Shown here: in pieces, positions 1 through 62,280 of the stretch
Layout of the letters: the number at the start of each line of letters is the position of its first letter
Numbering within the stretch: the stretch's first letter is position 1
Source of the DNA: Diadema setosum
Taxonomy: Eukaryota > Echinodermata > Echinoidea > Diadematoida > Diadematidae
Length of the DNA stretch: 64,000 bases
Assembly: GCF_964275005.1 (NCBI RefSeq)
Contig: NC_092693.1
Span: 20,885,706 to 20,949,705 of the forward strand
Direction: 5' to 3'
Program-made: the position numbers and the translations under genes
Notes under the pieces: model-generated
What the model saw: only the letters and a program-made list of their open reading frames with translations
Told to the model about the DNA's origin: nothing
Database searches by the model: none

Positions 1-1406
1 ATATGATACAAAGCGGTACATGTGTCGATTTGACTTTAATCCAACTGGAAAGGACAGTTCATTGAACACAATATAAAAGATATGTACGAATGGTATTATA
101 ACCAAAAAAAAAAAAAAAAAAAGATTTATGCAAATTTTGTCATGGTAACAAAGAAGAAGAAGCAATCATATCGATGAAAAAGAGTGTTCCACTAAAAAGC
201 CAAGCTTTGTCACCTACAAATACAGTGACGCAATTATGTAACTGCCGCAAAGAGATGAAAGGAAGAATAAATTCATATACCCATTGATAACGGATTTTTT
301 TTTCAACATTCTTGGTAAAATAAAATGTATATCACCTCACACATGATATGAGCACAAATCAGCTTGACAGAGCATGTGTCACACTGGCATCTAAAGTATT
401 GAATGAGTCAATGATTTGGTTTACCTTCCTTATAAAGGTCCATAACATGACAACACCAACCAACGATTTTGATCGAGAAAATAGTGATTTTTGTTTTAAT
501 AAAAATGACGTATCTGATCCTAGCATTGGTAACTCGCTCAGCGGCAGAGATGAGAAATGACGAATTTCAAATGCTTAATTTTAACATTTTGATCGACAAA
601 GCACGAATGCAAATTAATATGACGGGGGGGGGGGGGGGACCCAACACAAGGAGTCTGCTCATCTCTATATTTGAGTAGTCGGGCATTACCAGTCACGCGC
701 AACATGCATTATGCAGCTTGGTGAAGCTGGAAATAATGAAGTCCTTACAGCCCAGAGCCAGAATTTCTGAAAGCTACATTAATCATATATTAAGTCATAA
801 TCTTTGTTCGTGTGACAAGCTCACCTCAGTCGTCAGTGCAGAGATCTATACCTTACACAGATATTCCGTGTGACCCTGTGAGTCATCTTTTTATGAAGTA
901 GGTCGAAAATTCCTTAACATATTGTCTAAACTTTATGCTGACCGTAGTTTATCGGATGCATGGAAATATCATACGTCCGTTAATTACCGAAATGCCCGGT
1001 AAATCATGCGTCCTGTAATTATCGGGCGCATGGTTATGGAAAATGGCATGAATAAAAGGAAAATAAGCATGCAGTGAGTGAGAAATTGTTACATGGCAGT
1101 TGACCAGTTAGACTGCGAAAATTCCCTAACTAATTCTATAAAGACGTTTTAACAATCAATTTATACCAAATGGTGACGCATCCTTCGAATGAAATGGCAC
1201 ATGTTATTGACTGTGTGTTCTCTTTTTAGTGAACGTGAGTTTGCCCTCTAAAACTTTTCATTTTCGGTTCAGTGAGCCGAGAGTAACAGTTTTTTTTTTT
1301 TTTTTTTTTTGACTAACTTCCTTGCAAGTTCATCGTAATACTCGAGATACATGTTTAATTCTCGAACCAACCTGTGGGGATTCCGAGGTTAAAAAGAGAT
1401 AACAAT
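1..1406. other. Upstream of the SLC7-like gene; no gene seen
   Basis: No coding exon or RNA gene was recognised here. The stretch is AT-rich, with A-runs near 103-122, a G-run near 626-638 and a T-run near 1291-1310. A short imperfect palindrome lies around 975-1030. The proximal part must hold the 5' UTR and promoter of the + strand transporter gene, but no core promoter motif stands out. Confidence 0.4.
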
Positions 1407-1890
1407 ATGGCTGCTAGTAGTGACAATGTGGGTGTCAGCGATAAACCGTCGACGCCGACCACCTCGGCGTCGCAGAAAGTGGTCCTTCGTAAGCAGGTGT
1501 CCCTCCTCGACTGTGTCGCTCTGTGTGCCGGCACCATCATCGGGTCTGGAATCTTTATCTCCCCGAAAGGCGTGCTGGCGAACACGGGGAGCCTCGGGAT
1601 GTCGCTGATCGTGTGGGTTGCCAGCGGATTCTTATCCATCATGGGTGCTCTGAGCTACGCCGAGCTCGGCACGACGTTCGCCAAGTCCGGCGGCGACTTC
1701 GTCTTCCTCTTGGATGGGTTGTCCCCTCTCCTTGCTTTCCTCCGCCTGTGGACGTCGATAGTGTCTATAAGGACGGGGGGTTGGACTGTGCTCTCGATCA
1801 CCTTCGCGAAGTACGCCTTAGCTCCTTTCTTCTACGGCTGCGACGATGCTCTTTTTCTCGCTGAACGGCTTCTTGCGGCTTGTGCCCTGT
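1407..1890 (+). CDS. SLC7-type amino-acid transporter light chain, first coding exon (TM1-TM4 region)
   Basis: This exon encodes the N-terminal third of a light subunit of heteromeric amino-acid transporters (SLC7A5-A11 group), which exchange amino acids at the plasma membrane when disulfide-linked to a 4F2hc-type heavy chain. The family signature GTIIGSGIFISPKGV in TM1 is present, followed by LSYAELGTTFAKSGGDFVF and LLAFLRLWTSIVSIR. A cysteine in the extracellular loop before TM4 (FFYGCDDALF) sits where the heavy-chain disulfide cysteine lies. The ATG at 1407 has A at -3 and G at +4; no earlier in-frame ATG was seen. The exon ends in phase 1 at a clean donor (GT|GTGAGT, intron from 1891). 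The next matching exon lies inverted at 3869-3994. The exact paralogue (LAT, y+LAT, xCT or b0,+AT) cannot be fixed from this fragment. Confidence 0.88.
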
Positions 1891-1958
1891 GTGAGTTCTG
1901 ATGTAATCACCAACCGGATGGCAAGCCATGATTAAGATTGGTTGAAATGTTCGGCAGA

Positions 1959-2378
1959 GGTACACTGAACGGAGTCATCCCACAAGACCGAACCCACGAG
2001 TCATACGACCCACAAGATTGACATTGAAAAAAGGTCTATGAGTAATACGGTTAAAGAGTCATATAGCCCATGAGTCCGATACTTAATAGGCAAACAAGGC
2101 CCACAAGTTCGACACTAGGCAAACAAGGCCTATATGGGTTCGACACTAAGCAAAAGGCCCAGGGCTTTCGAGACCGACATTACATCACGGGGCTTTTGTG
2201 TCTGTCTCGTGGGCCACGTTTGCGCAGTGTCGAACTCGTGGGCCATGTTTGCCTATAGTGTCGGACTCATGGGATTTATTTGCTTATCCATAGTGTCGAA
2301 CTCATGGGCTGTATGAGTCAAGGGCTATGTAACTAGTGGACTGTATGACTTTTGTGTGTCGAGCTCATGACGTGCACC
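1959..2378. repeat. Foldback repeat of iterated CCCACGAGT/GACAC units, copy 1
   Basis: The left half repeats short units such as cccacgagtcatac and cccacaagttcgacac. The right half carries their complements (gtgtcgaactcgtgggc), so the ~420-bp segment can fold on itself. The right end, gacgtgcacc, is the reverse complement of the left end of a second copy at 51994 (ggtgcacgtc). This suggests a non-autonomous element with defined ends. It sits in the intron 70 bp after the first SLC7-like exon. Confidence 0.7.
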
Positions 2379-3242
2379 CCACTGAACCATATTAGCAGGG
2401 AACGTCTTCGACATTTTGGTGGCATGCGGGGAAAGGTCTTCTGGTACATCGAATTTCGGGCGAATGATGCACGAAACTAACTGATAATGTCTTCGTAGTG
2501 ATACTTGAATGTTCTTTCTTATGCATCTTTTTGTACAATTTCTCGTGTTTGTTTTGTTTTTTTTTGTCTGGATTTATCCGTTTCCTCTATGTTTCGAAAT
2601 AAGGTTGATCTTTTCGAGTATGTTGTGTGTATTTTGGTATTATTTTGGTGTTATTTGGTGTATAATTTGTTTGTCTCGTATCCATTGGAACATTGGTGCT
2701 TTATTTGGTGATTTGTTCTCTAAAATGATCATGAAGATCATGAAGGTTCTGAATGGTTTGCAAAGACGAAATGATTACATTGAAATGATGCTAACAGCGG
2801 TCTCTTAAAGGAACACTACGGTTCATAATGACGAATAGAAAGAAAATTAGTGACTAGAAACACTACTACTACTAATTTTCGCAATAGAATAAGCGCCAGA
2901 TTTGGGACAGGAAAGCAGAAAAGGGTGCACCGCAATCGAATTCCCCGAGCTCCAAACAGAATGAAAAAACAAGAAGCGTGAATTATTCATGAACTCTCTT
3001 TGCGTCGGAACAGCGTTTAAAAGCTATTCTTGGCAATTTCATAAACTTTTCAAAGTTGAATTGTAGCAAATATGGGACTCTTGAGGTACAATTCCTGTTG
3101 ACTCATTTAGATAAATTTGATTCCGGAAAATAGTCTTACTAACAGCAATAACCATATATAGCCATCTCATCGGAGCATCTAAGATTTCACATCGGAGGAA
3201 ATCATAGACTTGATGAAAGCAATGATTGCAAGACTTTATCAA
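2379..3242. other. Intronic DNA, no feature recognised
   Basis: AT-rich intron sequence of the SLC7-like gene. No exon with transporter similarity was seen on either strand, and the open frames here are short and without recognisable domains. Confidence 0.4.
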
Positions 3243-3278
3243 ACCAAGGAGGTACTAGGCGAGCTCGCCTACTTGAAC
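3243..3278. repeat. Small palindrome, left bracket of the inverted exon
   Basis: It contains caaggaggtactaggcgag followed by the near-complement ctcgcctacttga. The core aggcgagctcgcct is a perfect palindrome. The right arm lacks about 7 bases present in the second copy at 4559-4596. Both copies share caaggaggtactaggc. Confidence 0.8.
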
Positions 3279-3868
3279 AAACTAAATATTAGATCCGGAC
3301 GATAGCCTCTTTGAAATGGTTGTTTGAAGGTTAAGTATAAATTCAAAACTCGTCTTTTAATATTACATGAGAAAAAGTACCAACGCACCCTTTCGGCAAA
3401 ACCGGGGGGGGGGGGGGGGGGGCTTTGGACGAAGGGTGGTGTTCCCATTAACGCGACGCGCCACCACCCAACCCACCCTTTCGGCACAAGCCCATCGATT
3501 GACCCCTGCATGTTGAAAATTACAGTTTTGTACAGGGGAAAAAATATAGCAAAATCTAAAACCTAACTTGAAAATAAATCTTGAATTTAATTAAACTGAT
3601 TTATGCTTTCATTTTTAAATTACCTCCAACAAAATTGTACATTATTCAGCTATTGCTAATATCAATGTCAGTGTTATCTGATTTATAGTTTTTTAACTAT
3701 TAAGGATCAAAAGTGGGAAATGTTTTTGGAACACTTAGTACTTCCCTCCTCTCGTGTTTATCTTCCTTATTTGCGATATTTGTTCCAGCACAACAGAAAA
3801 ATGAAGGAATGAAATAATGTAATTTAACAAATTAAAAATTCAGTTGATAAGTAAAACATATCACTCAC
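3279..3868. other. Intronic DNA with a poly-G tract
   Basis: Contains a run of about 19 G at 3404-3422, followed by a stretch rich in ccaccaccca. No exon was recognised. It lies inside the segment bracketed by the two small palindromes. Confidence 0.4.
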
Positions 3869-3994
3869 CTTGACCTAAGACTACCAACCCCGAGATGACG
3901 ATGACAAGAATAGCAAGGAACTTTGTCGCACTGAAAACGACTTGTACACGTCTACTCCACGTGACACTGGCGCAATTCATGAAAAACATCAGAC
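3869..3994 (-). CDS. SLC7-type transporter exon 2, on the strand opposite to the rest of the gene
   Basis: The 126-bp minus-strand exon reads LMFFMNCASVTWSRRVQVVF then SATKFLAILVIVISGLVVLG. This matches the TM4-TM5 segment of SLC7 light chains (family pattern INC.SVR..T+.Q..FT..KLLAL..II..G). It has a CTAG acceptor side and a GTGAGT donor. Its phase (one base carried in, one carried out) completes the 1407-1890 exon exactly: the final T of exon 1 plus GT gives Cys, producing ACALCLMFFMNC. So it belongs to this gene by sequence and phase, but it is inverted. It lies inside a ~1.3-kb interval whose edges carry two copies of one palindrome (3243-3278, 4559-4596). Either the gene is disrupted in this haplotype, or the assembly has flipped the segment. 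Confidence 0.85.
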
Positions 3995-4558
3995 CTAGAG
4001 AATGGGTATCACAAATGCATACAAAGATAAATCGTCATGAAACTTTCGTCGGGTAAATCTTCGAGCATATACAGGTCCTGGTTTGTGGGAATGCCTAAAC
4101 GCTATAGAAGAGCATAAATTTTCACAGTTGTTTGTTTTTGTTTTGTTTTGGTTTTTAGGATGTAGGTTGACGATTTTCATTACCAAATGCATGGGTATAT
4201 AGACAGCAGAGTGTAGGAGGAGTAGAGTATTTATTGCCCGGAACTCTACATGACTGTGCCAAATTTCCAGCAGAATTCGATTTTTTTTTTTTTTTTTACA
4301 TTTGTAAAATCATTCAGAAATATTATCTGGCACATCATTATTCTGTTTCTTTAAAAAAAAAAAAAAAAATCAGTTCTTTGAAACAGATGAAATTGGAGTA
4401 CAGTTGATTCAGTACACATCAATGCATTGAAATATTTGATTGCCTATAAGTATCCGAAAACACTGTGATGAATTATAGTTACTGGTTCAAGCAATTACCA
4501 AGTCAATTTCGGGCACGACATTGATGTTAAGAGCGATCTCGAATACGAAATCCATTTG
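3995..4558. other. Intronic DNA, no feature recognised
   Basis: Contains homopolymer T (4280-4297) and A (4354-4369) runs. No exon was found. It is part of the palindrome-bracketed interval. Confidence 0.35.
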
Positions 4559-4596
4559 ATCAAGGAGGTACTAGGCTCGCCTAGTACCTCCTTGAT
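4559..4596. repeat. Perfect 18-bp-arm palindrome, right bracket of the inverted exon
   Basis: Arms atcaaggaggtactaggc (4559-4576) and gcctagtacctccttgat (4579-4596) are perfect complements separated by two bases. It is the more complete copy of the palindrome at 3243-3278. Confidence 0.9.
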
Positions 4597-5587
4597 TTCC
4601 CATACTCTGTATCATGTCATACAATAAGTCGCAAGTTGGTATAGACCCTGGACTCACAGCTACTCCATACAATGTCATAAGAGACATGACTTCACATGTA
4701 TAACTATAGCAGTCATCTATCACTCACCGCTCACATTGGTCAAGACCAATTCACTAATTCCCTTTAACTCTAAGGGCTGAGGAGAATTAGGTTATGAGAA
4801 AATTCAAGCTCCTTCGTTGATATCAACGCGTCAGATGTGACGCAGAAGAAGAAGAAATAAATACAATGGGAGTCGGACTACTCTTAAAAATAGAAACGGA
4901 ACGGTAATGGACTAGAGGGACAAAGCACCGTCTTTTAAAGCCACATCAAAGTCCTAGGCGGAGGTCCCAAAATTCATTTCCCATAGTTCGGAATTCGTTT
5001 GCAATACATCAAATGAGTCTACGAACAAACAAATAAACTCACCTGGCTAACGCGGTATGCCAGGATGGTGAGTTGTTTTGGAGTTTTACTTGAGATTAAA
5101 AGCGTAGGATGATTTTGATCGCAGTACACGACTTTTATTCCAGAGGATACTTCCCCGTAAGCAGTGTGGGTAGCAAGAATCTTGCGTGACAATCGATCGA
5201 GCCCTATGTATAGCAATCGCATTTTCTAACAAGCTCCATTACTCTAGAGCGAAAGATAGGCGAGTACTGTTGTTGCCCGATTTGTCCATTATCGACAATC
5301 GATCATTAAAAACAAAATTAAAAGGCAATTACGATCCAGTATGCTCTTGGACTGTCGTACTTCTGGCAAACTTTTTTTGGCTACTATTTCGCATTTTCGT
5401 CGTTGCCCAACAGAAGTCGTATTATTACAGCGTTATTTCTTACATTAATTAACTTAAGGATATTTACACATTTTAGAGCAAAAAATCGACAGTTCTGCAG
5501 GCAAATGGGAACTATGTTTTCCCTTTGAGATAGACGAAATGTATATCATCGTAACTTAAATTGCAGCAAGTAATCTGATGGTTACAG
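4597..5587. other. Intronic DNA; expected SLC7 middle exons not found
   Basis: The exons for TM5-TM10 (roughly 180-200 residues) should lie between the inverted exon and 6593. Neither strand here shows the conserved blocks expected (FAYGGWN-like, TEE, or proline-rich TM8 motifs). The minus-strand frame at 5019-5222 does not resemble the family. Confidence 0.45.
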
Positions 5588-5935
5588 TTCTTTATTCCGA
5601 AGATTCGGTATCCCAAATGTTCGTAATTCCGAAAATGAAATAAGCTGCGTTATTCCAAATATTCATTAATCCGACCATGAAATACTAAGGTTTGGAATTT
5701 CGAAGGTTGGTAATTCCGAAAACGAAATAAAGTTCGTAATTCAGAAGGTTCGTTAGTACACACTTTCCTTGCAATTTCGGATCGACGAACCTTATTCCAT
5801 TTTCGGATCATTAGTGCACCTTCGGAATGACAAACCTTTTTTTTTTTTTCATGTTCAAATCAACGAACGTTATTTCATTTTCGGAATAACGAATCTTATT
5901 TCACCTTCGGTATTAGGAAATAACGAACCTTGGCA
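5588..5935. repeat. Foldback repeat of iterated CGAAGGTTCGTAATTCCGAAAA units
   Basis: The left half repeats gttcgtaattccgaaaatg-like units in one direction. The right half repeats their complement (cattttcggaataacgaa). This gives a ~350-bp self-complementary block. The architecture matches the repeat at 1959-2378, but the unit sequence is unrelated. Confidence 0.7.
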
Positions 5936-6078
5936 TAACGCAAAACTCAAAACTTGATTTCACAAAACTCTGGAAGGGAAATTCTCCATAATAGTTGTTT
6001 GTTCGTTTGTTTGTTTGTTTGTCTTTCCACTTAAGAGCAAATGATAATCAAGATGTTACCCTCATTTTCAGTCCTTGA

Positions 6079-6392
6079 CAGGGGCGGATCTAGCTTTTTA
6101 TAAAGGGGGGGGAGGGTGTGGGAGAGGGGTGTCGCCCCTCCCACAGTAGGGAGAATTTTTGAAAATCTGTGTGTGAAAATGGCGTTTTCTTGCATTTTTT
6201 TTTTTTTTTTTGGTATAGAGGTCATTGCCATAAATAGAAAAAAAAATAAAATTACAAGTTAAAAAAAAAAAAGATAAGATAAAAAAAAAAATGATCCCCG
6301 GATTTTTTTTTTTTTTTTTTTTTTTGGGGGGGGGGGGGGAGAGGGGTTGCAAACCACCCCCCCCCCCCCATCCCCCTCTAGATCCGCTTCTG
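6079..6392. mobile_element. hAT-like MITE (314 bp)
   Basis: Terminal inverted repeats caggggcggatctag and ctagatccgcttctg bound the block. The 6-bp direct repeat ccttga lies immediately outside each end (6073-6078 and 6393-6398). The interior is low complexity (G, C, A and T runs) with no transposase. A CAG..CTG terminus suggests hAT, though the family normally makes 8-bp duplications. Confidence 0.65.
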
Positions 6393-6592
6393 CCTTGATT
6401 AAACAACACCCAAGATGCTGATTATCTATTGACAGAAGATTCGGTCTAAGGACAGATATACCTCGAGTCACGTGCATTTTACCACCTTTAAACCTGCTTT
6501 TATTGGCCTTAGTTTCGAATGGCGTTTCTGTTCTTCTTTCCTTTATATTCTTTATTGACTTGCCAAATGTTTCCGTCTATTTCATACTATAG

Positions 6593-6770
6593 ATTCCCGC
6601 GGTTATTCCAATCGTATTTTCGTGCTTCGCCTTGTTCGTTGTGGTCATGTCGTTGTACTCGGCACCCGTGGAGTGTGGGATAGGTCTGGCCATAACAGCC
6701 GCTGTTATCCCCGTCTACCTGGTAGGCGTGAAATGGCAAACCAAGCCAGTTTGGTTTGTCGGAATGTCGG
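6593..6770 (+). CDS. SLC7-type transporter, penultimate exon (TM11-TM12)
   Basis: This exon reads PAVIPIVFSCFALFVVVMSL, then YSAPVECGIGLAITAAVIPV, then YLVGVKWQTKPVWFVGMS. It corresponds to the last two membrane segments and the PVYFLGVYW-like block at the C-terminus of LAT/xCT-type transporters. The acceptor is a pyrimidine-poor ACTATAG at 6592 and the donor is G|GTAAAA at 6770/6771. The exon starts in phase 0 and ends in phase 1, joining the last exon (G plus AG gives Glu). It is on the same strand as the first exon, so the + orientation is the gene's orientation. Confidence 0.85.
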
Positions 6771-7352
6771 GTAAAAAAACAAAAAATCTTAAATATCTTT
6801 TTGTCTTATTCAAATATATAACGAAACCATTCAAATGGACACTGAAGGGCATGTACAGCGTTATCATTTTTGCATAGTCGTTAAGACCGTTTGCACGGTC
6901 ATGTAATCGAGAGAATATGACAACCCTGCTGGAAAGAGAAAGGAGTTTTTTTTTTCTTTCAACTGGTGAAAGTTAACACTTTGTTGGACTTACCTTCCCA
7001 ACGCTTTTTTTTTTTCATCACTGCACCGCTAAAACGGGTTTCATGAATGCGACAGAAGGTTTTTAGAAACTTCCGAAGTCACTCTTCTAGGGATGAGGTT
7101 TTAATTGTTCATGAACGATTTTCTATTCTATATCCCGATGAATGAATGGCTGTATTAATGTATGAATGTATAAACATTTTTCAATGTTGTCTATGAATCG
7201 GTTAAATATCTATTGATATTTTCGCTACACTATATAGCACAGAAAGGGCACCATGTTGCCACAAGTACTCATCAATGCTTTTAAAAGAATAATTACTTTT
7301 CCACGTTTTGTGTATGCGCTGTCTTATTATTTTTTTTTTTCTTCTGTTTCAG

Positions 7353-7417
7353 AGAGCGTGACCATATTTCCGCAGAAGCTATTTTTGGTCATCTGTCAAG
7401 AAGAGAAGACCTGCTGA
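7353..7417 (+). CDS. SLC7-type transporter, last coding exon
   Basis: After a good polypyrimidine tract and CAG acceptor, the exon reads ESVTIFPQKLFLVICQEEKT plus Cys and a stop (TGA 7415-7417). The SVT.F.QKL..V block matches the cytoplasmic tail of light-chain transporters. It completes the split Glu codon from 6770. Confidence 0.82.
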
Positions 7418-8050
7418 GTATCCACCGCAACGAAATGGACGGCATCCGTTTCCCAGACGACCGTCTTTTCACTTAAATGTTTTTGAAACATCATATATTT
7501 CATAATCATCTTTTTTGCCAGGTGAAATTCCTCAACTTCAAGTGCTACATTGATTTCGGTCAATTCACTGGAGTGACTAATATTTTAAAATACATTTCAA
7601 CCTTGTCTACACTGGTAAAATCGTTGCCTAATGTAACAAGATTAAAGGGATGGTATAGTTTTCGTCGAGATGGGGTTTTCAGATCTTAAATTACTACGAC
7701 AAAATTAGTTACCCTTATTGTACTTGCAATACATTCCTATGAAAGTCTATTTCATGTATGCTAATAATATTATCAGCCATGTACTGGGTGTGTTAATTTT
7801 TGGTGGTTTTTTTTTTTTTCCTTTTTTTCAGTTTTCAGTTGTTTTTTTTTTTTTAAACTGCGATTCCATACACCCTAATCAATTATAGTCTTTTAATCAG
7901 TATATCTTGTGGCAATGTATATGTAACAGTATGCAATTCAGGGTAATAAACCTGTAGATGTGTTGTAACTATGGCAGTCACTTGTTTAATCTTTTTACAA
8001 GGTCTTCATTTTTCATGAGTACGAAATAAACTGCTTGTTGATACAATCTG
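7418..8050 (+). other. Probable 3' UTR of the SLC7-like gene
   Basis: The stretch after the stop is AT-rich and non-coding. AATAAA signals lie at 7945-7950 and 8025-8030, either of which could set the transcript end. The ttaaagggatggtatagttttcg motif near 7644 resembles one terminus of the TTAA MITE family seen at 62971-63483. Confidence 0.5.
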
Positions 8051-11048: not shown

Positions 11049-39399
<28,351 letters not shown>

Positions 39400-41544: not shown

Positions 41545-41821
41545 TGCAACTTATTGACAAATTACCCTACATCGACGTAAATAAGCACTGAATTGATCAG
41601 TATTTTAGTAGTAATCATGATTTTAAAAAAAAAGAAAAGAAAAGCGAAAGCTCGGTGGTCTAGTGGAGATGACGCCTGTCCGGTGATCAGGAGGTCGTAG
41701 GTTCGAATCCCGCTCGAGTATGTACGCCCATGCTTTTTTATCATCACATGGTTACTACTAAAACACTGATAAATTCAGTGCTTATTTACGTCGATGTAGG
41801 GCAATTTGTAAATCAGTTGCA
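41545..41821. repeat. Palindrome in the LINE with a tRNA-like sequence in its loop
   Basis: The left arm (41545-41622) and right arm (41740-41821) are reverse complements (tacatcgacgtaaataagca against tgcttatttacgtcgatgta). The left arm is LINE coding sequence, so the right arm is an inverted duplicate of it. The loop holds the tRNA-like element. Confidence 0.85.
41650..41720 (+). mobile_element. tRNA-like head of a SINE (or tRNA pseudogene)
   Basis: It contains ggtggtctagtggagatgac (box A region), an anticodon-arm-like cctgtccggtgatcagg, and ggttcgaatcccgc (box B). The acceptor ends pair only weakly (gctcg with cgagt), and the anticodon loop lacks the usual T33, so a working tRNA is unlikely. 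It resembles the tRNA-derived head of a SINE. Confidence 0.6.
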
Positions 41822-42089
41822 AAGAGTTATATTAATTACAGCACACGATTTTCGGCTCGTCTATATATCTTGCAAGTCATAGAACAATGTCTGTATACCA
41901 GTATAATATTCGTTTTACTGGACCAAAACTGTGAAACTCATTACCACTGCATGTTGCCAGTGTCTCATCTATGAATGCATTTAAAAGCAAATTTAAGAAA
42001 TACCTGTTATCAATGCAATGTAAACAGTAAGATTCACCAGAATTGTAGATCAGGGATAGATAAACAAACATACATGCACACTATACTAG

Positions 42090-43060: not shown

Positions 43061-43178
43061 GGTATATAATATATACCTTGGGACGCCAAGCTCTTCGAAA
43101 ACGCACCGTCTTCACCACTTCCTGATATTATCAGGAAGTGGTGAAGACGGTGCGTTTTCGAAGAGCTTGGCGTCCCAA
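43061..43178. repeat. Perfect 101-bp palindrome with an adjacent 17-bp palindrome
   Basis: Arms 43078-43127 and 43129-43178 (50 nt each, starting ttgggacgccaagctcttcg and ending in its complement) match without a mismatch around a single central base. Directly to the left, 43061-43077 (ggtatata-a-tatatacc) is an independent 8-1-8 palindrome. RNA from either strand would form a 50-bp perfect hairpin. No transposon termini or target duplication were seen. Confidence 0.95.
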
Positions 43179-46100
43179 GCACAATGCCGAGTTAGTGAAA
43201 CTTGTTTGGTCGTTGAGATGTTTGTCCTCTCCGGTTTGACATGTTTACATACTGTCTGTCCATAGAAAGGGAATTTCCCACCGTAAAGCATAACCAATAA
43301 GATAAAAAATGACAGCTCAGTCAATCTTTGACTTACGGAAATTTGGATAGGAGTGGAATGTCTTATATACTTCCTTTTCATGTGTGTGTGTGTGGGGGGG
43401 GGGGGTCGACGAATGAGAAGGACTTTCAGCTTTGAATTATCCATTTTATCAGGTCAAGAATATGTAGGTCCTATTTTATACTTTATCGTCAAAAAACAGG
43501 GGACAGCTCGGGCGAAACTCGCATTAGAATATTTACCAAGCGTCACTAAAAATTCATATGATTGTCAGTGTAATAGTCTAACTTGACATCTAAAAATATT
43601 GGCATCTTGAGATAACAATTACATTCAGACGTCTGTGTGCGTCTCATCCGCAGTTTCCTAGTCTGAACACTCAGTACCATATTCAGCAAACGTTGTATGC
43701 TTCATCTGGATTAATTCTTGAAGAAAGTAACTCCTCCTACAATAATTCTGTGCTGATTGAAGTATACTAACATGCAGGCCTGCTAACGTATACCATTGAC
43801 ACATTTCACGCTGTCTTAATATCCAGTTCGTTTGTCCCTTTTGCAACACTGAAAATGGAATTCGTTTCATAAGCTGCTGGTATAGGATCTATATTGTATA
43901 GAGGTAAGTAATTCAGACTTTTCCTTAGAATAATGAAATTGGAAACTTCTTCCTGACGTAGGGGGAATAAATATAGTGTACTATAATATTAGAATTCCGG
44001 TAAATTCATTTGGACCCCGAAAACACCCAATCGTTATGTTCAGTAGAAAAAGGGAGCGTAATTTCGAGTGACATTAGGTTAAATCTTCACTTCTTTCTTT
44101 CTTTTTTAACCTCTCTTGTGTATTACCACAAGATTACATACACGATGTTGGGAGACATTAGTCTTTAATCGTGCAAAATTTCATGATAAATATTTGCAAA
44201 AGGGCTTCATACCTTTGGAGTAAATAAAACTTTCAAAGAAATTAGGTAGACCTTTATATCCCACCTCCCAGTCACGTGGCAGTCACGTGACTATAAGTCG
44301 CTCTGTGGATTACTCGAGATGACAATGATGAGATAAGCAGACATGTCATTGCTCAATTCTCCCTAATCACACATGGCCAATATCAAGCAATATCACCTCG
44401 CGTCTCTGTCCAATCGCTGTAAAATTTCGATTGATTTTGATGATTATGCTTCGTTTTAGAGATGAAGATTAAATTATCAATAGCAGTCTGACGGTACATT
44501 TTCATTGACATATGATTATACGTGTCACTTCGAAGATAACCATGAGATTACATTGTGTGTAATTCCTATAATTATGGGTATAAGCAAAACAAAACAAAAC
44601 AGAAGCACTGTACTTCAATTCACCGCAAGTCACAGCAAGGAGATGGGATAGGGAAGTACTCCCACAACTCCCTTCTCCTGCTTCCCTCATCATGTACCTT
44701 TTCACCATTTGATTCTCTCATCTGCAACATTCCTTCCATGAATGCGCTTTCACCCTCCTTCACCGTCCCCCCCCCCCCTCGTGTCACTTTCCTTTTGTAA
44801 ATTTCAACGTAAAAGGTGCCTATAGCCTAGACAATTTTCGTCACACAATTCTTCATCACCAGCAAACCCGTTGCACTGCATGATCCACATCCCTTGCGTC
44901 TCCCATATCCATTGATGGCGATCGATTATTTTGCACAATCCGTCAGTGCTACTCTGAGATGCCTGTTTTCTTAGAAGGTTGTAAAAGGAGCAACGTTAAT
45001 ACAGGCCAAGTCCAAAGTCACCCCCCCCCCCCCCCCAATTGTTTCTAACACCCCCGGACAATGCCCCCCGCGGCCTTTGTCATACGAGACAAGCTTTGCC
45101 CCGGGTCGTGATCGCGGGAAGCACTGTTTGGCATCCGTTCAATCGTGTTATGTGTCGAGAGTTGAAGTACAAATACCGATGAACGATAACACAGACGCCC
45201 GATTAACATACAATGCTCATTTAGTTCCTGTCCACTGGCCCAAGTGCAAATTAGGCCCATTGTGTTTTTCAACCATCGGTATCGCAGCTGGTCCACTCAT
45301 ACGGTGGCGTTTTGTCAGTGAGTCAGCTTACCTGTGAAGTACAGAGCGCGTTTGTAGAAAGCTCCAAGTCTGAAATCAATCCAGATGAATCGGGTAAGTT
45401 TTTCTCCTTACTTTCTACCTTTTGAACATCTCCCTTCTCAGTGTTACCATTACTTTTTATAAAACAACACTACAACACCAACGGTTGGCTTGGATAAGCG
45501 ATATCATACTTGATTTTATTATCTTCGTACGGATAGTTCGTTGTTCATATACAAGTCAGGCGTTCTATGCTCAAAAGACCTAACAATATCATACTGCGTG
45601 CAACATCTTTGCATAATGTTTGTGATGTATTTTTGCCTTACACCGCCGTTGTCTATGTGTTTTTGTTTTTTTTTTGAATGGTCTAGACTGCCCGAACCCT
45701 GACCTTCATTGGTCAACGCATGATGCCGAATCATCATGATGTCGCATGGTAGTATCATATAAGCTACAAATGTATACATTTATTCTCGTAATAGTGTGCC
45801 AAATTGTCCTTCATCGGGGGGCCAATGAAGTATCCCACATCTTTAATCGACTAAAGAATACGTAGGTCAAAGTTGGTATAGTCCCTCGACAAAACGTTGC
45901 GCAATTTATGATTTGTTCAAAAAGCACGTCAGCTGACCTCCAAATGCTCAGTGAAGGAGAATATTAACAATTTTATTGCATCAATAAATCTCATCCTGGC
46001 ATCTGATTTAATTGTAAGACGAGGTACAAAGGGCAACCAAATGATCAGCGATACGAGTAAACGTGATTGTTTAGCAATCTTTAAACTTTAAATCGCAGAT

Positions 46101-47672: not shown

Positions 47673-47721
47673 CCTTGATACCATGGATCATGGAGGTACT
47701 ACCTCCATGCATGGATCAAGG
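47673..47721. repeat. Small near-perfect palindrome
   Basis: ccttgat...catggaggta, a central c, then tacctccatg...atcaagg. The arms differ by a short gap. The ggaggtact/tacctcc core resembles the palindromes at 3243 and 4559. Confidence 0.8.
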
Positions 47722-59025: not shown

Positions 59026-59566
59026 CTGATTAAGAAAACGAGCAAACGAGACCAGACGAAAGGTTATTATTTTCCGTTATCATTTTGACCAGTAATCTCC
59101 TAATGCAGTTACTAATACCAGGTAGAATTTCTCTCCTAATAAAAGTGCACTGATGTGGTGTTGCAGGCTGCTTTTGCAAAAAAAAAAAAAAAAAAAAATC
59201 AAACAAAGTCGGCTAGTACTTTTATTGAACTCGTAATAGATGATTTAGTATTGCGGAAGGGTTTTACCCTCGATACTCGACACAAATTTATTATGATATT
59301 ATTCATTAAAAACTTACCTTTATTTTTGAACACGGAAGAGTAAGCATTCTAGCGGCAACTATTCTTAAATGTCACCAGATCCGAGGAGTTCATGGATTAT
59401 ACAATAAGGGCTATAGTAATCGACGGTGATAACATGTTTCAAACGCAACCATGACCCAAGGAGTCTCGCTTTGATATGGGCAATCATCAAATTAAAAAAC
59501 AAACAAACAAACAAACAAACTAAACGACCATCATCACAATACTTCATAGAGTTCATGTCAACTTAC
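59026..59566. other. SLC52A last intron
   Basis: Contains an A-run (59178-59197) and an (AAAC)n tract (59497-59521). No other feature was seen. Confidence 0.6.
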
Positions 59567-61048
59567 GATTAATACTTTTCCAAAAGATCGGTCGTGGAAT
59601 GGTGGACTAGGACTAAGTAAGGCGGCCACCATACAATACGAGCCCGCCATTATGCCACCGGCGGAAGTCAGGGCAACCACCGCATAGCTGTTCGTGGGAT
59701 AGATCGTCACCAACAGGAACCCTACTGGTGTGCTCATCTCAGCGAAGGTGGCCACCAGGAGGTATATGTCCGCACCGTATGCACCTGCCGAGTAACTCTC
59801 GATGGACGGAAGAAAGCCGTAAGTGGCCCCGCTTATTATTGTCAGGGTGACGAAAAGAAACGCGTATCTTCCTGAACAGGAACGGGTCTTGCTCGCCGAA
59901 TCAGTAAGGTGTTGTCTATCATCAGCAGCATCTGATGAACACTGCTGCGAGCTGTCTTCCATGCTGTCACTGGCGTTGTTTTCTCCCGCATCTTCGAAGT
60001 TGGAAGTTCTTAAGACTTTCCGTGGAAAATTCCCGGTAGGATCCAGGGAGTTGTAACTGCTATTTCCATTGTGGGAAGTTTTAGCCGCTCCCTCTTTGTT
60101 ACGGCCTTTCAGTATACTCTCACCCTCCAGTTTACTATGTTCCCTATGTCGGAGGCTAACCATCGGAAATTCCTCATCTTTCGTACGGCTGCCCTTATTG
60201 CACGGATCACACGACGTGAGACAGCAACACCAACATTTTCGAGGGTTCTCATCATACTCTGCCGTATCATTGTGTTTGATGATTTCGTACTCTCCTTGGA
60301 GGATTGGCAGCCATCGAAGGAGACAAAATGACGCCGCACTGATAGCTGTAAGAGAGAATATGAAAGTGAAGTACATCTGGGGAGAAAAGCGTTCGCCATG
60401 ATCCATGCCCACAACCCATTCTGTGCAGTTGTGGATCACAGTGATGTTGGTTTCAGGGTCAACTGTTACATTCAGGTAGGTGGAATTTACTAGGCATTCT
60501 TCGTCGGCTCCAGAGCCCTGTATCAACACCATCAAACTTGGGAGAATGGCGCTTAGTCCCTCGCCTATAAAGTATAGATTTAAGTAGCTCTGCTTCAGGC
60601 CCTCCACGAAGGCAATAAATGTAAGATTTGATGTGCTGTCAACGAAAGATATGAAAAACGTCAGCACCAAGAAAGCAGTACTGTGGTCAGAGCCATCCAG
60701 GGGCCAGAAGGTATCGTCGTCCCATAAGAAGATCAGGAGGAAACTTCCGACCGCCCCAAGAGCGAGTACGATATATATCGCTGGGACCTCCAAGCGATAT
60801 TCTTTCGGGACCACTCTCTGGACGACTACAAATATCAGCGGACCAATAACAGCCCCTTGGGTTACGACGATGACATAGGACCCTATCTTGTACCCTTCAT
60901 CTATACCGAAATTAGTCAGGAGTGGCAGTTCCACCCATATCCCACTTAAAGTCACCCATGTGCTCATACCAAAGGTCATGAGCAGCACCGACGTTAAGAT
61001 TTGTGGAAGCGACACTTTGCAATACATGGTGTGAGTCCTCTGAACCAT
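59567..61048 (-). CDS. SLC52A: SLC52A riboflavin transporter, first coding exon
   Basis: RFVT proteins import riboflavin across the plasma membrane. The exon gives FGMSTWVTLSGIWVELPLLT (TM1; human [20 protein letters not shown]), AFLVLTFFISFVDSTSNLTF, and YFIGEGLSAILPSLMVLIQG. An extracellular loop with four N-glycosylation sites (NST, NVT, NIT, NCT) follows, then a long Ser/Asp/Lys-rich cytoplasmic loop of about 120 residues, then ISGATYGFLPSIESYSAGAY and four more helices. With the last exon it makes 577 residues, longer than human RFVTs (about 445-470) mainly because of that loop. The start at 61048 is the first in-frame ATG; a second at 61027 (context caccATGT) lies closer to the human start. 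The donor is ATC|GTAAGT. The paralogue (A1, A2 or A3) is not resolved. Confidence 0.93.
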
Positions 61049-62280
61049 GTATAAAGTAGTAAACGATATCACAGCAGGGAGTATATGTTATCTTCTTATC
61101 GACGTCTCACAGAAGAGAGCAGGCAGAGGCATTGCTTTTCGTCAACAGCAATGCAGATTCGGACACCTTGCGTTGAGTCGTGAAGAAAACCAATGCAAAC
61201 ACAGGCTGTGGTTATGTGATCAGCGTCAATAGGATGTAAACTGTCGACTGCTTTCCGTATCCAGTGCAAGTGCCATCATCAGATTTAGTTTTATGGCATT
61301 CTGCTATAAGGAGAAACAGGAGAGAGAGAAAAAAAAAAACAAGCCTGGCTTTGATATTGAGAATATTAATGGTGACAATAGACTACATGCAGCATCATAT
61401 TGATTTTGACAACAGGACAATAATCATGACGAGCATCATATGATTTCACATGTACTTTTGGTAACAATTTACGGAAATTTAAAAGATTATTCAAACCCAA
61501 TTTTCTCTTCAGAGCGATATTTAGTTACCGCAGCAGGGCTGAATCGCATTGCTATTCTGCCCCAGTTATTTATAGAATGAACTCTTAGATTTGCTTTTGT
61601 AAAGCTTGCAAGGACTTACAAAATGTAAACAACAAATATCAAGAAGAGTTCAACCAATATATGATGGAAATTAATCTGTACAGCAAAATGCAAAACTTGG
61701 AAAACGGGAGAAAGGAAAAGTCTTTTAAAAACTTTTTTTTAATGTCATAATGATTTTTCTCTACAATAATTTATGTTCACTCTAAAAAAAGTAAGCCATA
61801 ACGACCAATATACAGTCCTACAAACGAGTACAAAAATTGACATCGTCCATATCGTAAGGAATATAAATACAGTAGGGCCTACCTCATGGGGAGCAAAAAT
61901 GGTCCGAATCTGTATCACTGAAGTTTCCAGCTTATGTCCTCAGTTACGGGGCATGCCAATCATCTCCAGAGCTGGTCCGCTGTTTGTCACGGTCTCGGAG
62001 CAGTCGGTCATAGCAAGAGGTCGCGGACTGTTCTATACGCCATCATCACGTGAATTGCGGTGGATTTTACGCACGAAAGGACGGAGTGAGTGCGCTCTGA
62101 TTATATCCTCGAGTAGTCTGTGATAAAAAAAGGAAACTACTATTTTAAAAAAAAGAACACGAAAAAGTTGGCCTCGATCAAAATTGTCGAAGAAATGAGC
62201 AAAATGGGAAACGGATTTGATTCACCATCATGTGTATACAACTACATCTAATATTATAATCGAGAGAGCTGTTTTTTGTA
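61049..62280 (-). other. SLC52A upstream region
   Basis: This is the 5' flank of SLC52A on the minus strand. No core promoter element or upstream exon is clear. Short frames within it have no domain. Confidence 0.4.

Follow-up and report, generated by a model that had tools for sequence, protein, structure and literature searches.

A disabled tandem copy of an SLC7 transporter gene in Diadema setosum, with an inverted exon between palindromes that may be transposon excision scars

Copy B keeps four exons, one of them inverted

We analysed a window of 64,000 nucleotides from the echinoid Diadema setosum (contig NC_092693.1, positions 20885706-20949705; assembly GCF_964275005.1, 912,680,840 bp in 102 contigs). 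The window holds four exons of a gene for an SLC7 amino-acid transporter, here called copy B, in which exon 2 lies on the strand opposite to the others, between two palindromes (P1 and P2). We also examined 50 kb upstream and 20 kb downstream, giving 134 kb in total; negative coordinates denote positions upstream of window position 1. Copy B is very probably a tandem-duplicate pseudogene that has suffered both a deletion and an inversion.

Exon 1 of copy B (1407-1890, plus strand) runs from the start codon to a phase-1 donor and encodes an intact SLC7 N-terminus; its top match in the PDB is y+LAT2 (E 1.9e-41), and it scores 50.8 bits against Pfam AA_permease_2 (cut-off 27). Exon 2 (3869-3994, 126 bp), read on the minus strand, has canonical AG/GT edges, runs from phase 1 to phase 1 and has y+LAT1 as its best match among solved structures (E 4e-06). 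Exon 9 (6593-6770, plus strand) starts in phase 0 and has an xCT consensus as its top match (E 2.5e-11). Exons 1, 2 and 9 are thus all homologous to the light chains of the SLC7 heteromeric amino-acid transporters. Exon 10 (7353-7417, plus strand), which terminates with TGA, is a weak match by itself (E 39 in a tblastn search of both strands of the 64 kb with three human relatives), and its assignment is secured because a sister gene, copy A, has a counterpart. Part of intron 8 also survives (5949-6592, plus strand), with homology to copy A in pieces, at 5949-6078 and then from 6410.

Joined, exons 1 and 2 read ...ACALC|LMFFMNC.... An earlier reading of this DNA, made from the sequence alone, had proposed that the inverted exon completes exon 1 in both sequence and splice phase, and this was confirmed by the y+LAT1 match and by copy A, which has an identical exon 1/exon 2 junction (AACALCLMFYVNC) and carries the two exons on one strand, the plus strand. 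Hence, the pairing of the two exons in copy B is not due to chance.

The middle of the protein was sought in the whole window, on both strands. Profile positions ~218-423 were absent (best profile match E 3.4), and for this part of the protein tblastn with the three human relatives gave at best a weak, gapped match at 14818-14937 (E 0.058); we take both matches as noise. Copy B therefore has no complete coding sequence: about 200 amino acids are gone, exons 3-8 are missing to the left of the intron-8 homology that begins at 5949, and the missing exons are present in copy A. The phase-0 start of exon 9 does not fit the phase-1 ends of exons 1 and 2; hence, neither skipping exon 2 nor flipping it back gives a frame into exon 9. 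Translation read through beyond exon 1 stops at codon 165. The earlier suggestion that no normal protein is made therefore stands for copy B, with exon 2 inverted and exons 3-8 missing.

An apparently complete sister gene lies 17 kb upstream

Copy A is a tandem paralogue on the plus strand, 17 kb upstream and outside the window, with all ten exons in order. Its exon 1 (-17171 to -16685) is homologous to exon 1 of copy B, and its exon 2 (-15169 to -15044), the same exon that is inverted in copy B, stands upright. Exons 3, 5, 6, 7, 8, 9 and 10 follow downstream of exon 2 in sequence, and the small exon 4 lies near -8665. Copy A appears complete, meaning that it showed no break; for exons 3-8, the joints were judged by eye. 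A nearby complete SLC7 gene was what the sequence-only reading had named as a sign of a pseudogene or paralogue fragment, and copy A appears to be such a gene.

Across the assembly, copies A and B were the only members of this SLC7 branch; the next best match had 51% identity. Exon 2 of the branch occurs twice in the genome, on the plus strand in copy A and on the minus strand in copy B, whereas each of exons 3, 5, 6, 7 and 8 has a single match with at least 83% identity, in every case in copy A. With exons 3 and 5-8 of copy A as queries (exon 4, of 15 amino acids, was left out), no second copy was found in the whole 102-contig assembly. Hence, flipping exon 2 back would restore nothing, and in this assembly the locus is not the otherwise whole gene with a simple balanced inversion that the sequence-only reading had implied. 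The unique part of the inverted segment is single-copy in the assembly.

Between the two copies, 281 shared codons carry 31 synonymous and 25 other changes, giving dS 0.165, dN 0.041 and an omega of 0.25, which suggests that selection acted on both copies during much of the period after the duplication. There are 24 amino-acid differences, 15 of which could be polarised with the three human relatives; copy B departed at 11 and copy A at 4, a mild sign of relaxed constraint on copy B.

Homology of copy B to copy A falls into blocks at 1255-1912 (plus), 3846-4088 (minus, 82%), 4165-4282 (minus, weak) and 5949-7649 (plus), the last plus-strand block beginning at -3349 of copy A, within intron 8. 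When the middles of the introns were aligned, only the reverse complement of 4283-4560 against intron 1 of copy A beat shuffled sequences (z 3.2), with a scoring that was too lenient for this to be informative.

Palindromes bracket the inverted exon, with a severed transposon beside one of them

P1 (3245-3275) has a 19-nt left arm (CAAGGAGGTACTAGGCGAG) and a right arm that lacks 7 nt. P2 (4561-4594) is 34 bp long with the centre TC and has no 7-bp duplication beside it; the interval 4559-4596 is a perfect palindrome with 18-nt arms and a 2-nt loop. Together they form an exact inverted repeat of 20 nt spanning 1350 bp, one of two complex inverted pairs in the window with arms of at least 20 nt and a span of 200-2000 bp. 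The sequence-only reading had placed the same palindrome at both edges; P1 has its left arm in full, but the 7 nt absent from its right arm mean that it is not the same unbroken palindrome. Other copies of the arm within one mismatch were absent from the surrounding 134 kb.

Beside P1 lies a transposon end of about 219 bp (3273-3491, plus strand), the outer part of a high-copy element of about 1.3 kb that has been severed there. It is 95-97% identical to the seven copies examined (40 of 2686 candidates were scored). Elsewhere the element measures about 1.3 kb and has an inverted repeat of about 205 bp at its termini, and its other end was present at six of the seven loci; the window holds the outer 219 bp and none of the rest. 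The inner side of the severed element ends at P1, its last 10-20 bases aligning ambiguously, and the final CTTG of P1 can be assigned to either, so the two sets of coordinates overlap.

The palindrome belongs to a dispersed family with 7-bp duplications

An exact match to the palindrome (arms CAAGGAGGTACTAGGC, centre 0-8 nt) occurs at 130 places in the 912.7-Mb assembly, compared with none for a reversed-pattern control and none in viral contigs. We read 45 of these places, taken from the head of the list (contigs C1-C8), with a few listed places passed over, and so not a random sample. Exact target-site duplications of 7 bp flanked 36 of them and 8-bp duplications flanked two; one had an exact duplication of 4 bp, and none had one of 5, 6 or 9-11 bp. 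Counting matches of at least 6/7, 42 of the 45 had duplicated flanks, or 39 of 42 independent sites after removal of three from repeated loci (L035, L036 and L039), compared with 32 of 1722 random flank pairings. The 36 duplications have the consensus GTNNNAC, with G in 26 and T in 27 at positions 1-2, and A in 28 and C in 23 at positions 6-7. Duplications of 7 or 8 bp with GT...AC ends are what footprints of the P superfamily should show. Wider flanks were unrelated between places, except for the repeated loci and a 29-bp match between L048 and L060.

The 19-nt arm with any base except C after it (CAAGGAGGTACTAGGCGAGD) occurs at 41 places, of which 16 were read (L085-L100). Eleven, one of which (L100) is the same place as L047 of the 45, have duplications matching at 6/7 or better around 19 nt of the left end, 0-22 nt of filler and 4-19 nt of the right end. 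The flanks of L094 and L095 match at 5/7. Both transposon ends are present at L090 and L092, where the flanks disagree; these two are possibly other rearrangement joints. L086 was considered as the left end of an intact element and rejected, as 10 kb of sequence from there showed neither a partner end nor a long open frame. The remnant of each end is limited in length, mostly to 19 nt at most, with variable trimming and filler, and a few palindrome variants (L040, L050) suggest 20 nt per side.

Closer to the locus, 27 complex palindromes were tested in a sequence-blind scan of the 134 kb. It revealed two short relatives whose 7-bp duplications are perfect, one of 21 bp at 47689-47709 (CATGGAGGTACTACCTCCATG) and one of 22 bp at -10172 to -10151 (CAAGGAGCTATATAGCTCCTTG); members of the family range from 21 to 46 bp. 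Both relatives sit within outer inverted repeats, as if they were nested scars. Two other candidates were rejected: a match at 22414 has a different sequence and is probably due to chance, and the flanks of a perfect 103-bp palindrome at 43077-43179 (51-nt arms, 1-nt centre) do not match.

P elements, after excision and end joining, leave both transposon ends at the donor site. Because the relatives carry filler DNA, trimming and a limited length per side, we infer that the palindromes were left behind when a P/Galileo-like DNA transposon was excised and the break was end-joined, with up to 19 nt retained from each end. Galileo, of the P superfamily, makes 7-bp and occasionally 8-bp duplications with a palindromic GT...AC consensus, according to PMC2775673 and PMC4168063, the latter giving GTANTAC. 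For P transposase, PMC10983969 describes cleavage that leaves a 17-nt single-stranded 3' extension of transposon sequence, and many aberrant rearrangements upon excision by a P-type transposase in human cells.

The genome has 52 matches to PF21787, by its name presumably a transposase domain of P-element type, some of them being parts of one copy; none of 14 control genomes matched, a weak control as these are probably microbes. Six of the P-type matches have open frames of more than 700 amino acids. Two P-type copies share 97.7-98.8% identity across the 2.4 kb compared, and the matches as a whole, for example C6:39085064 and C18:36246021, possibly reflect a recent burst of the P superfamily. 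None of the 52 matches could be linked to the palindrome ends, with 16 of 41 half-sites and stretches of two P-type copies read.

Origin of the rearrangement

The flanks of P1 are ATCAAAC on the left and AACAAAC on the right, a 6/7 match. Those of P2 (ATTTGAT and ATTTCCC) match at only 4/7, compared with at least 6/7 at 39 of the 42 independent sites. Since a transposon is severed at P1 and no target duplication is left at P2, the inverted segment probably has its edges at the palindromes, and both features fit real breakpoints. As for duplications exchanged between the edges, the left flank of P1 matches the reverse-complemented left flank of P2 at 6/7 (54 of 1722 by chance), and the two right flanks, compared in the same way, match at 3/7.

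Our best explanation, with a probability of about 0.65, is that the locus represents the disabled downstream partner in a tandem xCT/y+LAT-like SLC7 pair and that its rearrangement arose from footprint-leaving excision. Transposon excision as the cause, taken by itself, is somewhat likelier than not to be correct, and the breaks would then have been made by a transposase. P/Galileo-like elements would have occupied three sites in copy B, namely intron 1, a different transposon that lay within intron 2, and intron 8; their excision would have opened the chromosome there. The exon-2 fragment would then have been re-ligated backwards and the exon 3-8 fragment lost, with P1 and P2 left as scars at the two joints. 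Had a single intron-1 element been cut and its sides sent to different joints, the left flanks of P1 and P2 would be inverted copies of one duplication; the right flank of P1 would derive from the intron-2 transposon and that of P2 from intron 8, so unrelated sequences would be expected. The split of one element thus predicts agreement of the left flanks, which is nearly seen, and disagreement of the right flanks, which is seen.

Several observations weigh against this explanation. The 6/7 match of the flanks of P1 to each other would make P1 an ordinary scar unconnected with a joint. Because the right flanks do not match, the edges do not show duplications exchanged in full, and the explanation has to postulate a third element, situated in intron 8. 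Disagreeing flanks are also not peculiar to P2, as they occur at L050 (3/7, among the 45 places), L090 and L092. The ancestral break sites cannot be placed, the intron middles of copies A and B being too diverged. Among the 16 of 41 half-sites read, none belonged to an intact element with such ends, and the palindrome end was absent from the stretches obtained of two P-type copies, whose ends lay beyond.

Deletion-inversions made by end joining are common, and an ordinary non-homologous deletion and inversion, with the palindromes as older insertions that lie nearby by chance, would sit well with the near-matching flanks that P1 has of its own. It would leave to coincidence that the severed transposon begins within a few bases of P1, that P2 has no duplication, and that no other arm copy with up to one mismatch lies in the 134 kb. 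We regard this as possible but unlikely.

Ectopic recombination between inverted copies may instead have flipped exon 2, with exons 3-8 deleted later in a separate event. Galileo in Drosophila buzzatii offers a precedent (PMC2775673), and the agreement of the left flanks fits such an exchange, but the other pair of flanks should then agree as well and does not. Moreover, homologous recombination would have had very little to work with in 20 nt of exact identity, unless full elements were still there at the time. This route is improbable.

Another doubtful reading, somewhat less probable still, is that palindromes of 21-40 bp are themselves complete mobile elements that make 7-bp duplications, and that two of them built the deletion-inversion by aberrant transposition. 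If so, they would be among the shortest transposable elements of any animal.

An assembly error, with the segment placed backwards and exons 3-8 dropped, is very unlikely. The analysis covered a single assembly, and homopolymers of 17-18 bases flank exon 2 (G from ~3405, T from 4281 and A from 4353). However, the 134 kb contain no N, the exact inverted repeat is only 20 nt long, and no second copy of exons 3 and 5-8 was found in the 102 contigs.

The sequence-only reading had also raised the idea of a natural on/off switch of the transporter, reversible by inversion between the palindromes. An inverted repeat does bracket the inverted exon, but re-inversion does not restore an intact gene: exons 3-8 are gone, the re-flipped gene would be out of frame, and the apparently complete copy A, 17 kb upstream, supplies the gene. 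Hence, for this assembly, the idea has almost nothing left to recommend it. Trans-splicing across strands occurs at mod(mdg4) in flies, and the inverted exon has intact splice sites, but its use in this way is equally far-fetched: the gene has lost its middle exons, copy A has the exon upright and a transposon is severed at P1, all of which speak for damage.

Neighbouring features of the window

Other features of the window include two neighbouring genes on the minus strand. TANGO6 (13571-33578) is recognised by TANGO6_N (139.7 bits, 32853-33578) and RTP1_C1 (97.1 bits, 13574-14740), and a riboflavin transporter of family SLC52 lies at 59558-61087 (327.9 bits). The only tRNA-like match to Rfam (41649-41721) falls within a dispersed repeat at 41644-41825, which has three copies of ~93% identity in L005 and is probably a tRNA-derived short repeat.

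Significance and comparison with known systems

What had been taken for a possible genetic switch becomes a worked case of the death of a duplicated gene, by inversion and deletion, with possible transposon scars at the joints. Copy B is very probably a dead tandem copy of an ordinary kind with an unusually legible likely cause. A more general outcome is a large collection of short palindromes, all from one 912.7-Mb animal genome, whose 7-bp duplications are intact. If they are P-type footprints, such palindromes would record where elements once sat and how the breaks were repaired, including breaks that rearranged genes, and would be readable from assemblies alone.

As a pseudogene of an SLC7 light chain (xCT, y+LAT, LAT), copy B shares sequence, exon order and phases with copy A and has lost its middle; by sequence, its relatives are the light chains of humans. 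It differs in that one surviving exon has been inverted, rather than lost or mutated. Deletion-inversion variants made by end joining are similar in that one fragment is inverted and its neighbour lost; here, in contrast, the breaks apparently lie at transposon scars.

P-element excision footprints resemble the palindromes in that parts of the two transposon ends, trimmed and sometimes separated by filler, lie between target duplications. They differ in the 17-nt 3' extension given in PMC10983969, compared with up to 19 nt apparently kept here, and in that the parent element of the palindromes was not found. The Galileo inversions of Drosophila buzzatii (PMC2775673) have transposon sequence at both edges of the inverted segment and flanks that disagree at one edge, as this locus appears to have, and 7-bp GT...AC duplications like those of the palindrome family. 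In contrast to those inversions, the edges here carry only 31-34 bp each, the segment is 1.3 kb long, the exchange is one-sided, and exons 3-8 have been deleted.

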